In this document: positions 6,590 through 30,173 of the stretch, piece after piece
Numbering within the stretch: the first letter of the stretch is position 1
How the letters are laid out: each line of letters begins with the position of its first letter
Translations under genes and position numbers: made by a program
The notes under the pieces: model-generated
Database searches by the model: none
The model's input: only the letters and a program-made list of their open reading frames with translations
What the model was told of the DNA's origin: nothing
NCBI GenBank assembly: GCA_003280265.1
Contig: QCFJ01000016.1
Span: forward strand, 1-33,373
Length of the DNA: 33,373 nucleotides
From: Prochlorococcus sp. AG-363-G03
GTDB taxonomy: Bacteria > Cyanobacteriota > Cyanobacteriia > PCC-6307 > Cyanobiaceae
Direction: 5' to 3'

Positions 6590-7108
6590 TTATTTAGCTG
6601 CTTCAGGTGCTTTTCTGGCTTTGCGTGCACGTCTAGCAGGTCTACCAGCACTTGGCTTAACAACTGCAGAAACCTCAGCTTTATCTTTAGCTGCAGCCTT
6701 TTTAGCTACTGGCTTTTTAGCTACTGCTTTCTTTGCTGTTGCCTTTTTAGCTACAGACTTTTTAGCTACTGCTTTTTTAGCTGTGGTTTTTTTTGCTGCA
6801 GCAGCTTTTGGAGCAGAGCCTTTACGTGTGCGATGAGAAAGAATTAAAGCCCATTCATCAGCGCTAATATTTGCTGGCTTATTTCCATGAACCTCAGACA
6901 CTTTAGCTGCTTTTTCGATATCTTTAATTAGGTTTTTCCAAGAAGCTGCGTAACGTTTATCAGACTGAGATTTAGCACCGCTTTCAACAAGGGTTTCAAC
7001 GACTTGAGAAGCAGTAACCTTCTTACGACGTCTGTTAAAGATCTCCTTTTGCAAGGTAGCAATCAAGGCATCACCTTTAGCACTAACTTTGATGGATAAC
7101 TGAGACAT
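6590..7108 (-). CDS. histone-H1-like nucleoid protein: conserved N-domain, AKKxV-repeat tail, GRP motif
   Basis: First ~100 aa nearly identical to ORF 17517-18134; tail is Ala/Lys repeats ending AGRPARRARKARK. Confidence 0.85.
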   Translation of the reverse strand: MSQLSIKVSAKGDALIATLQKEIFNRRRKKVTASQVVETLVESGAKSQSDKRYAASWKNLIKDIEKAAKVSEVHGNKPANISADEWALILSHRTRKGSAPKAAAAKKTTAKKAVAKKSVAKKATAKKAVAKKPVAKKAAAKDKAEVSAVVKPSAGRPARRARKARKAPEAAK

Positions 7109-7384: not shown

Positions 7385-7552
7385 TCAGGCCAACTCTGAA
7401 CACCAACCAATCTCTTTCTCTCGTTGCCGCATCCAAAGAAGACAACGTGAAATCAAATGGTCACCAAGAGGAATAAAACGACGATGAACATGACACGGAA
7501 GAATTGTTCTGCAATGCTTGTCACTGGAATAATTGAAATGTTGACATGTCAT
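7385..7552 (-). CDS. Cys/His-rich mini-protein (55 aa)
   Basis: Hand-translated MTCQHFNYSSDKHCRTILPCHVHRRFIPLGDHLISRCLLWMRQREKEIGWCSELA; ATGA overlap with upstream ORF. Confidence 0.6.
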   Translation of the reverse strand: MTCQHFNYSSDKHCRTILPCHVHRRFIPLGDHLISRCLLWMRQREKEIGWCSELA

Positions 7553-7749
7553 GCAAACGCAAGCTGAACATGTTTTTTTGAAAATCCCTTTCTCAAGGAA
7601 TTGCCACTCTTCTTCTTAACCGAAGATCTGATCGGTGAAAGTTTCTTTGGGGTGAGTCGTAGACATTGGCCAATTCCAATAGGTTGGGCTACGGCAGATA
7701 CCCATTCTTCAGCCTTAAAGACAGCATATGGGGAAGCAGATAAAGTCAT
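7549..7749 (-). CDS. small basic protein, coupled to 7385-7552
   Basis: 66 aa ORF; its TGA overlaps the next ATG (ATGA), favouring it over antisense ORF 7601-7789. Confidence 0.5.
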   Translation of the reverse strand: MTLSASPYAVFKAEEWVSAVAQPIGIGQCLRLTPKKLSPIRSSVKKKSGNSLRKGFSKKHVQLAFA

Positions 7750-7950
7750 TTACCTAGAGCAGTACACATGTACTAACAAGAATCAATAGGTAATGTCAAG
7801 TCATATATTTCAAAACATCTAAAATATGTCGCTTGCAAGACCAAAAATCGAATAAACAAAATGCTCAAACACCATGAATATTTCAAGGATATAAAGGCTA
7901 ATTAAAAATAATTAAACTGATAGGTCCACCACAAAACAAAATAAGAAATA

Positions 7951-7992: not shown

Positions 7993-8007
7993 ATCCCCAT
8001 CACCCAG
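7993..8007. repeat. 15-bp direct repeat copy 1 (ATCCCCATCACCCAG)
   Basis: Identical to 8139-8153. Confidence 0.9.
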
Positions 8008-8095: not shown

Positions 8096-8105
8096 GGGGG
8101 GGGGG
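8096..8105. repeat. G10 homopolymer
   Basis: Ten consecutive G in an AT-rich intergenic region. Confidence 0.95.
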
Positions 8106-8138: not shown

Positions 8139-8153
8139 ATCCCCATCACCCAG
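8139..8153. repeat. 15-bp direct repeat copy 2 (ATCCCCATCACCCAG)
   Basis: Identical to 7993-8007; directly abuts the terminator stem. Confidence 0.9.
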
Positions 8154-8463: not shown

Positions 8464-9324
8464 ATGATTGATCTCAAAAGAAATAGCAAAAAAGAACCAA
8501 TTGAAGCCACAGGCCTTCGAAGTCGTAAGTCTTCTCTGTATAAGCCAAATCAACAAGAAGATTTCAAAATTAGTAGAGGTCGTTTCTCAAATTTTCTGAC
8601 GTGTCAAAGGTGCTTTTATCTCGATAGAGTAAGAGGTCTTGATCCTCCAGGTACACCAGGTTGGACTCTCAATGAAACCACTGACCTATTATTAAAAAAA
8701 GAATTTGACGATTGCAGACAAAAGCAGGTTCCACACAGAATATTTGTCTCTAATGGACTATCTCATGTAGTTCCATTTGATCATCCTGAAATAGATAACT
8801 GGAGAAACTCACTTCATCGGGGACTAATGCATCGTTACAAAGATACCGGCATAATTTTGACTGGAGGTGTAGACGATATTTGGCAAGACACTATTACAAG
8901 ACAACTAATAATTGTGGATTACAAATCACAAGCAAAAAACGGACGAGTTGATAAGAAAGAATATTTAAAGGATCCTTTTCACGAGGCCTATAAAATTCAA
9001 ATGGACTTTTATGCTTACTTACTCTCGGGGATGGGTTTTAGTGTTCATCCAATATCATATTTTCTAGTTTGCAATGCAAAAAGGGATGAAGATGAATTTA
9101 ATAAGACCATGCGTTTTGATGAATATCTTGTTCCCTATAAATGGAGCAATGATTGGATAGAGAGTCGACTAGATGAAATGGTCTCACTAATGAATCAATC
9201 AGAGATTCCAGAATCAAATCCTTCATGCAAGAACTGCGCCTATGCAGATCAATATTCGAAAATACTATTTTCAGGAAATTCAAGTAAAAAAGAAATTACA
9301 CAAGGAACTTTGCCATTATTTTAA
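8464..9324 (+). CDS. PD-(D/E)XK (RecB/Cas4-like) nuclease with putative 4-Cys cluster
   Basis: GGVDDIW...LIIVDYKSQAK and QMDFYAYLL motifs; CQRC near N-terminus and CKNC near C-terminus; ends QGTLPLF. Confidence 0.75.
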   Translation: MIDLKRNSKKEPIEATGLRSRKSSLYKPNQQEDFKISRGRFSNFLTCQRCFYLDRVRGLDPPGTPGWTLNETTDLLLKKEFDDCRQKQVPHRIFVSNGLSHVVPFDHPEIDNWRNSLHRGLMHRYKDTGIILTGGVDDIWQDTITRQLIIVDYKSQAKNGRVDKKEYLKDPFHEAYKIQMDFYAYLLSGMGFSVHPISYFLVCNAKRDEDEFNKTMRFDEYLVPYKWSNDWIESRLDEMVSLMNQSEIPESNPSCKNCAYADQYSKILFSGNSSKKEITQGTLPLF

Positions 9325-9381
9325 GAACGCTAATAGTTTTAAAAATGATTTTGATCAAAAGGCGTCTAAAGGTTTAATGGG

Positions 9382-10020
9382 ATGTGCGGAAGATATCAGC
9401 TATTAACAAAATTTATAAATTTACCTGATCTTTTAAAAAAAGATGTGCCAAGAGGATTGAGTCAAAATTATGAACCACAAATATTAATCAAACCAGGTTC
9501 TCCAGTTCTTGTTCTTAAGAATGAAGGCAAGACACAAACATCAATAATGCTATGGGGGTTTATATCTGAGTGGAGTAAAGACCCTTTTGACAACACAAAG
9601 CCAAAGCCATTTAACGCGAGATCAGAAAGTATTGAAGAGAAGAAACTTTTTCGTGCAAGCTGGAGGCATAAGAGATGTTTGATACCAGCCAGTGGTTTTC
9701 TAGAAAAAGGTCACCTAATAGGAAGAAAAGATTCTCAAACTTTCTGGTTAGGAGGACTTTGGAATCGATGGATGTCTAAAGAAGGATGTGAACTAGAGAG
9801 CTGTTGTGTGCTAACGACCGAACCAAATGATTTAGTCAAACAATTTCATAACCGTATGCCCGTTATTATTCCAAATGGGCTAGAAGAAGAATGGATCTCT
9901 TCAGTTAAAAATGCTCAAGACCTTAAAGCTTTAAAACCACTAATGACTAAATGGGACCCAGAAGAATGGAAAGCCGAGCCAATAAACAAAACTAATGCCG
10001 ACCAATTATCCTTCCTATAA
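9382..10020 (+). CDS. SRAP/HMCES-family (YedK-like) abasic-site processing protein
   Basis: MCGRY with catalytic Cys2; FNARSES; PASGFLEK; FHNRMPVII; ends DQLSFL. Confidence 0.93.
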   Translation: MCGRYQLLTKFINLPDLLKKDVPRGLSQNYEPQILIKPGSPVLVLKNEGKTQTSIMLWGFISEWSKDPFDNTKPKPFNARSESIEEKKLFRASWRHKRCLIPASGFLEKGHLIGRKDSQTFWLGGLWNRWMSKEGCELESCCVLTTEPNDLVKQFHNRMPVIIPNGLEEEWISSVKNAQDLKALKPLMTKWDPEEWKAEPINKTNADQLSFL

Positions 10021-10034
10021 AATCAAGATAAAAA

Positions 10035-10059
10035 AAGGGCCTATACGAGCCCTTATTTT
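10035..10059. terminator. probable bidirectional terminator
   Basis: AAGGGC/GCCCTT stem flanked by an A run and TTATTTTA. Confidence 0.6.
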
Positions 10060-17516: not shown

Positions 17517-18134
17517 CTAAGCTTTTACAGCTTTAAGACTAACTTTTCTTGCACGCTTCGCAGGTCTTCCTGCTACAGCCTTAGATGCTCTATTTGAAGC
17601 TGATTTAGCGCTTGAAGTTACCTTTTTAGCCTGAGCAGAAGCTACTTTCTTAACTGCTGTTTTAACTTTAGAAGTCTTAACTTTTGCCTTTGCAGCGCTC
17701 TTGGCTGGAGCCGCTTTAGTTACTGCTTTCTTTGCAATTACATTTTTAGCAGCAGTTTTTTTGATTGCGGCCTTTTTAGCAATAGTTTTCTTGACAGCAG
17801 CCTTTTTAGCTGAGGGTTTTGCTGAAACTTTTTTAGCTCTCGTAGTCTTACGAGTACGGTGAGAGAGAATCAAAGCCCACTCATCAGCACTAACATTTGC
17901 AGGCTTATCACCATGGATCTCAGAAACTTTTGCAGCTTTCTCAATATCCTTTATTAAGTTTTTCCAAGAAGCAGCATAACGCTTATCAGATTGTGACTTA
18001 GCACCGCTCTCTACAAGAGTTTCAACAACTTGTGATGCTGTTACTTTTTTTCTTCTTCGGTTAAAAATTTCCTTTTGAAGAGTAGCGATCATTGCTTCGC
18101 CTTTAGCGCTAACTTTGATACTTAATTGAGACAT
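17517..18134 (-). CDS. histone-H1-like nucleoid protein, second paralog with longer Ala/Lys tail
   Basis: N-domain near-identical to 6590-7108; ends AGRPAKRARKVSLKAVKA. Confidence 0.85.
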   Translation of the reverse strand: MSQLSIKVSAKGEAMIATLQKEIFNRRRKKVTASQVVETLVESGAKSQSDKRYAASWKNLIKDIEKAAKVSEIHGDKPANVSADEWALILSHRTRKTTRAKKVSAKPSAKKAAVKKTIAKKAAIKKTAAKNVIAKKAVTKAAPAKSAAKAKVKTSKVKTAVKKVASAQAKKVTSSAKSASNRASKAVAGRPAKRARKVSLKAVKA

Positions 18135-29538: not shown

Positions 29539-30173
29539 TGTTCTTTCCCGTAGCGCTCAAGACCCCGTTCCATGTCTCAAGTCTTACTGCAGCTATAAAA
29601 CAGCTGAACGTTATACAAACCTAACAGAAATTATCCTCAAATGATGTTCCTAGTGATACATAAAAGAAGGAATTTTTTAGTGTTAAACGAAATAATTACA
29701 TTTTTAACTAAAAAGAACCATTTACCCAAAAAGAAAAAAAATTTTTTGCTGATCATTCACTTTTTTAAATTTTAAATAACCTACCTCTTTGTTCCTATTC
29801 TTAAATAAGCTATTCAATAAAAAGGTTAGATAATGGCCTGAATCGTCAATGTAGTTGACAGTTTAATCCAGATAAAACACTGTTATAAAAAATCAAATAA
29901 AATGCTTCTGTAACACTTCAAGAAGGTAAACCATTTAGGAGCCACACAAAAGCTTCATTATTTAAAATCCAGTTTTTGAGTACTGATATCACTATTAAAT
30001 TAATAAAGAGAAGAACTATCAAACGAAACTTAGAATCATCCAAACCCATAAGTGCATGAAAATTTAATTTTTTTAAGCCACACCTATTAAAAAAACATAA
30101 CAGTGCTGCGTATCTGGGAACATTGATATTAGCTAAAAGAATTTGCTTGAAGTTATCACATTACCTATGGTTC

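Follow-up and report, generated by a model that had tools for sequence, protein, structure and literature searches.

Predicted sliding-clamp-binding tails on an SRAP protein and a neighbouring PD-(D/E)XK nuclease of Prochlorococcus

A PD-(D/E)XK nuclease and the SRAP protein encoded next to it in Prochlorococcus sp. AG-363-G03 (contig QCFJ01000016.1, positions 1–33,373; this whole stretch of 33,373 nt is hereafter the window) are probably both clients of the DnaN sliding clamp, to which they would bind through disordered C-terminal tails carrying a clamp-binding motif. Considered separately for each protein, this predicted tethering is well supported. It builds on features established at the sequence level, namely the families and active sites of both proteins, the conservation of the motifs over variable linkers, the identity of one of them with the motif of DnaE, the DnaN pocket, and a pairing of the genes that is limited to one genus.

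SRAP proteins are already known, as are clamp-binding motifs and nucleases that bind the clamp (NucS, RecB). A literature search, conducted mostly outside subscription papers, retrieved no paper linking a bacterial SRAP protein to the beta clamp, and the clamp is absent from the main text of the 2013 survey that defined SRAP. E. coli YedK has no evident tether, and to the question of how bacterial SRAPs reach abasic sites at the fork a clamp motif in the SRAP of most marine picocyanobacteria would provide a direct, testable answer for a very abundant photosynthetic group.

Gene layout and protein families

A preliminary description of this DNA had placed two ORFs on the same strand, 57 bp apart and ending in the peptides studied here, and had assigned them to a PD-(D/E)XK nuclease with four cysteines and to an SRAP/HMCES-type protein with its Cys2, Asn, Glu and His residues; positions, peptides and both assignments were confirmed (Table 1). 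The deduced nuclease ends in ITQGTLPLF, and the SRAP protein starts with MCGRY and ends in NADQLSFL. A consensus scan detected no terminator-like site between the genes. In LLI-type Prochlorococcus (our interpretive label for the genus of the window, based on genome size and relatives and not the output of a tool) both genes would form one short transcription unit and are, therefore, probably co-expressed; the closest relatives of the window's Prochlorococcus are single-cell genomes such as AG-402.

Table 1. Features of the nuclease–SRAP region (positions are those of the window).
Feature	Position	Strand	Remarks
PD-(D/E)XK nuclease gene, 286 aa	8464..9324	+	PDDEXK_1; Cas4/AddB/RecB-like; Pfam and AlphaFold
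First of the two Cys pairs (2+2 arrangement), C47-x2-C50	8602..8613	+	Invariant in 30 aligned relatives
Catalytic core, D137 and D138 (GGVDDIW) to D152-x-K154	8872..8925	+	Invariant in 30 aligned relatives
Second Cys pair, C255-x2-C258	9226..9237	+	Invariant in 30 aligned relatives
Nuclease clamp-binding-type peptide, QGTLPLF	9301..9321	+	Invariant in the genus except for one P to Q
Intergenic spacer, 57 bp, without terminator	9325..9381	+	Spacing of about 57–62 bp across the genus
SRAP gene, YedK/HMCES-type abasic-site cross-linking family, 212 aa	9382..10020	+	PF02586 match
SRAP clamp-binding-type peptide, QLSFL	10003..10017	+	Invariant in the genus, codons vary synonymously
Terminator-like hairpin 3′ of SRAP	10035..10054	+	Presumed end of the bicistron; consensus scan only

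SOS control of the pair was rejected, as there is no LexA-like box within the 300 bp upstream of the nuclease gene, of the SRAP gene of the window or of the genes for 64 picocyanobacterial SRAPs. A perfect cyanobacterial LexA-type box (AGTACACATGTACT) is found at positions 7761–7774, around 700 bp ahead of the nuclease gene and just upstream of two small minus-strand ORFs (7549–7749 and 7385–7552); 18 of 20 loci of the genus retain it with minor variation, and the contigs of the other two end short of it. Also upstream of the nuclease gene, ten consecutive G (8096–8105), set in an AT-rich sequence, are flanked by two exact copies of ATCCCCATCACCCAG (7993–8007 and 8139–8153). Elsewhere, the window contains a glutamine-II riboswitch (29556–29613, minus strand; RF01704, 51.1 bits) and codes on the minus strand for two related histone-like proteins (6590–7108 and 17517–18134), which are nearly identical in their N-terminal parts (MSQLSIKVSAKG...) but differ in their Lys/Ala-rich tails.

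The nuclease matched the Pfam family PDDEXK_1 well above its cut-off (3e-9, 37.6 bits; cut-off 22), and both the catalytic D...DxK and the four cysteines are invariant in an alignment of 30 relatives that reaches down to 33% identity. Its AlphaFold model (pLDDT 84.5) was nearest to the solved folds of AdnA, Cas4-Cas1-Cas2, MGME1, EXO5 and RecE; since the TM-scores are low (up to 0.39 on the query), its closest enzyme is unsettled. We rejected its identity with Cas4, or its membership in a defence system: matches to Cas4 were only weak and below the cut-offs of Pfam (21.9 vs. 22.7) and NCBIfam (23.7 vs. 65), and the cysteines are arranged as 2+2, whereas those of Cas4 and AddB are arranged as 1+3. 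Likewise, neither Pfam nor NCBIfam returned a match to the NucS/EndoMS family up to E = 1.

The second protein belongs to the SRAP family (PF02586; 2.7e-45, 155 bits, cut-off 27.1), has a well-modelled domain (pLDDT 92), and carries residues C2 (the first residue after Met removal), N78, E108 and H156, which are invariant in 65 SRAPs; its expected chemistry is that of the studied YedK family (PMC9436759). The protein is predicted to form a covalent thiazolidine cross-link with abasic ssDNA. A tree built without the tails grouped picocyanobacterial SRAPs in a single clade, with 100/100 support in bootstraps that had not yet settled, and all other sampled cyanobacterial SRAPs, which lack the motif, fell outside it (L126–L155 and L186–L225 compared with L156–L185). 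This separation suggests either a replacement by transfer or a long divergence.

Distribution and pairing of the two genes

The adjacency of both genes, which had been put forward for examination across picocyanobacteria, is confined to the genus of the window. The SRAP gene follows 57–62 bp downstream in every LLI-type locus with the nuclease but adjoins the nuclease in none of about 60 loci from other lineages whose flanks were examined, and we therefore rejected a conserved nuclease–SRAP operon across picocyanobacteria. SRAP was present in 245 of 300 genomes and the nuclease in 74, so that most picocyanobacteria have SRAP without the nuclease; among the nine non-cyanobacterial genomes with the nuclease, just three contain SRAP. 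Additionally, stops interrupt the nuclease gene in two genomes of the genus (L054 and L112) whose neighbouring SRAP gene is intact. SRAP can thus do without the nuclease, and the pairing may reflect co-expression rather than a single machine.

Homologues of the nuclease with 60–66% identity occur in Prochlorococcus, Methylophilaceae, SAR116, OCS116, Nitrospinaceae and Flavobacteriaceae, often as several copies plus pseudogenes in the same genome, and with different neighbours almost everywhere outside the genus. It is conceivable, at somewhat less than even chances, that the nuclease is the cargo of marine mobile elements, with a motif that would target it to forks for recombination or spread, and that a single event in the LLI ancestor placed it next to SRAP. 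Transposases do bind the clamp through a C-terminal QLxLF (PMC4549789), and in the four Methylophilaceae loci inspected, which have a conserved neighbourhood, the nuclease gene starts around 5 bp after the gene for a YqaJ-type recombinase nuclease. However, within the genus it occupies one stable locus with conserved flanks, tRNAs are close to only some of the copies, and viral contigs yielded a single match. A search of 50,697 phage records yielded none, and a phage origin was accordingly rejected.

A dedicated repair module seems unlikely to us. In it, as in the model of the preliminary description, clamp-bound SRAP would cap an abasic site while the nuclease, likewise on the clamp, trims the DNA around it; alternatively, the nuclease would degrade the end of the cross-linked strand. 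The constant pairing and spacing in LLI-type loci agree with it, as do the location of the only terminator-like site 3′ of SRAP, the clamp-type tail on both proteins, and the absence of SRAP, too, from G005, G010 and G029, three LLI-type genomes that lack the nuclease. Against it stand the absence of pairing in every other lineage, the common occurrence of SRAP without the nuclease, the presence of the nuclease without SRAP, and the decay of the nuclease beside an intact SRAP. As the pairing is limited to one genus and each gene is found without the other, a joint action at stalled forks, on the same lesion, remains a guess.

Conservation of the C-terminal peptides and the DnaN pocket

The consensus for clamp binding has been given as QL[S/D]LF or QxxLF (PMC12309361) and, in a revised form, as Q-phi-x-[L/M]-[F/L] (PMC13254535). 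Peptides of the first type (QL[S/D]LF or QxxLF) end both proteins and are conserved across picocyanobacteria, within tails predicted to be disordered on otherwise well-modelled domains (AlphaFold pLDDT of 45–60 for the last 12 residues of SRAP, and below 50 for the last 15 residues of the nuclease, 272–286). The resemblance of both C-termini to clamp motifs, noticed in the preliminary description from a single genome, therefore withstood the examination of its conservation, which extends far beyond the genus.

In the genus, 21 distinct DNA tails all encode the SRAP ending QLSFL. Synonymous variation at four of its five codons, next to a residue that can be D, N, A, E or H just before the peptide, indicates that QLSFL is under selection. 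The peptide corresponds to QLSLF with F and L exchanged and has, outside the revised consensus, a Phe at position 4; this off-consensus form is fixed in the genus under purifying selection. Picocyanobacterial SRAPs end in QMSLF, QMNLF, QMTLF, QLSLF, QLDLF, QLPLF, QLDLL, QLSLL or QGSLF, preceded by linkers that are hypervariable in length and sequence. Three of them show QGSLF where their relatives have Q[LM]xL[FL], so that position 2 accepts Gly as an equivalent.

Using regular expressions of our choice on genomes that are samples, we found that 49 of 64 picocyanobacterial SRAPs carry a strict motif within their last 15 residues, where shuffled tails would give 0.26, and that 54 of the 66 SRAPs of the clade carry a relaxed one; several Cyanobium-type SRAPs lack the motif. 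The strict motif was found in none of 29 SRAPs from other cyanobacteria and in none of 22 from beta- and gammaproteobacteria, and was present in 9 of the 29 top-scoring SRAPs from Alphaproteobacteria. Likewise, among the few top-scoring Bacteroidia SRAPs extracted, some end in QGTLF or QGSLF. Well-supported branches of the SRAP tree force at least 12 changes of motif label, although some of the scattered labels will be false because each is the result of a regular expression.

The nuclease ending QGTLPLF was kept in 18 of the 19 distinct tails from the genus. In non-LLI Prochlorococcus, 44 of 45 copies end in Q[GR]x[LF]F, in the forms QG[NST]LF or QRxLF and most frequently as QGNLF or QGSLF, and altogether 82 of 91 distinct nuclease sequences have a clamp-type motif. 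The linker is almost free to vary (about 2–3 bits at most positions) and entropy is low at the motif, which at pattern-fixed positions is so by construction, because the search pattern fixes them; what is informative is how many of the copies match and how freely the linker varies. The Gly at position 2 falls outside the revised consensus (PMC13254535). Beyond Prochlorococcus, a Nitrospinaceae copy ends in QLELFK, and the ends of the copies from Methylophilaceae, SAR116, OCS116 and Flavobacteriaceae lack the motif.

Two other forms of the nuclease were observed. Some Prochlorococcus encode it as part of fusion proteins of approximately 860–960 aa that also contain a trypsin-like protease domain and TPR repeats; four of these fusions have no clamp tail. 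A shorter relative with 33–36% identity and a CxxC...CxxC arrangement is present in many genomes of one group (g41), often near 36–44 kb, and its C-terminus lacks the motif in the five sequences inspected (e.g., WQLSIT).

In seven picocyanobacteria, the sequence QGNLF of DnaE (Pol III alpha) aligned exactly at QADMF (920–924) of the E. coli alpha subunit and is, letter for letter, the commonest ending of the nuclease outside the window's genus. UmuC, in which the stretch from the IMS_C domain to the C-terminal end contains QLSLF or degenerate versions of it, is a weaker control than DnaE because its motif is degenerate in the genus; this region reads KQNLIF in three loci of the genus, and QLSLF in genome G069. 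At the positions compared in DnaN, which we take to be those forming the pocket of the E. coli clamp, residues L155, T172, G174, H175, R176, L177, P242, N320, Y323, M362 and P363 (E. coli numbering) are kept, and the changes are V247L, S346P and V360L.

That these peptides are conserved to fit another hydrophobic pocket, or as tags for protein turnover, and not for DnaN, appears improbable. DnaN binding is a prediction, and QLSFL and QGxLF do depart from the strict consensus; but the latter coincides position by position with the DnaE motif of the same genomes, and textbook motifs (QMSLF, QLSLF, QLDLF and QLPLF) alternate at a single orthologous position in SRAP. Chance, a caveat of the preliminary description that is reasonable for short peptides from a single genome, can be discarded with near certainty, in view of the excess over shuffled tails, of the invariant peptide over synonymous variation, and of a background in which none of 575 ends from other ORFs of the same loci matched the SRAP motif patterns.

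Proposed roles and relation to known systems

Our preferred reading is that each protein combines a folded enzyme with a short disordered tail that has a clamp-binding motif at its tip, from which we infer DnaN binding and localisation to the fork. SRAP would ride on DnaN by its tail and, at the fork, cross-link abasic sites of single-stranded template. The nuclease would be a Cas4/AddB-like DNA exonuclease, both activity and polarity being predicted, that is retained at clamps through the same form of motif as in Pol III alpha and acts on single strands or ends nearby. As a second predicted client reusing the motif of the replicase, it raises the question of competition with Pol III alpha. 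As the clamp is dimeric and its two pockets can be occupied by different partners (PMC13254535), SRAP and the nuclease, or one of them with Pol III, could in principle bind simultaneously.

A broader proposal, that SRAP tethers arose independently in several phyla (picocyanobacteria, Alphaproteobacteria and some Bacteroidia, convergent with HMCES–PCNA) and that the LLI unit of shield plus nuclease acts on the same lesion, is doubtful as a whole.

Several known systems share features with the proteins of the window. The RecB-type PD-(D/E)XK fold is common to the nuclease and to Cas4, AddB, EXO5 and MGME1, although the scores and cysteine pattern described above, as well as the clamp-type tail, set the nuclease apart from Cas4 and AddB. 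NucS/EndoMS is likewise a nuclease with a C-terminal clamp-binding motif (PMC11109965), comparable to the tail predicted here, but its family is different and so is, as far as known, its substrate. In RecBCD, a RecB-type nuclease touches the clamp pocket through a motif (PMC13254535, from 2026); nevertheless, that motif is an internal QVEMEF within a helicase-nuclease, whereas the nuclease of the window is small and its motif is free at the C-terminus. E. coli YedK has the same SRAP domain (PF02586) and Cys2, Asn, Glu and His catalytic residues, but ends in GAELIQPV, with no clamp motif, while picocyanobacterial SRAPs, which branch apart from it, have a short variable tail plus the motif. A parallel to the SRAP tether would be human HMCES, an SRAP enzyme with a proposed C-terminal PCNA-binding motif (PMC8053108), of which the bacterial tether would be the counterpart, although with another clamp and another motif (PIP/APIM vs. 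QxxLF). The distribution of the bacterial motif in the part of the tree sampled suggests an origin independent from that of HMCES, and a convergence with the proposed PCNA tether; the match of both C-termini to the motif of the replicase suggests that marine cyanobacteria carry a fork-tethered damage-capping protein, as is thought for human cells.
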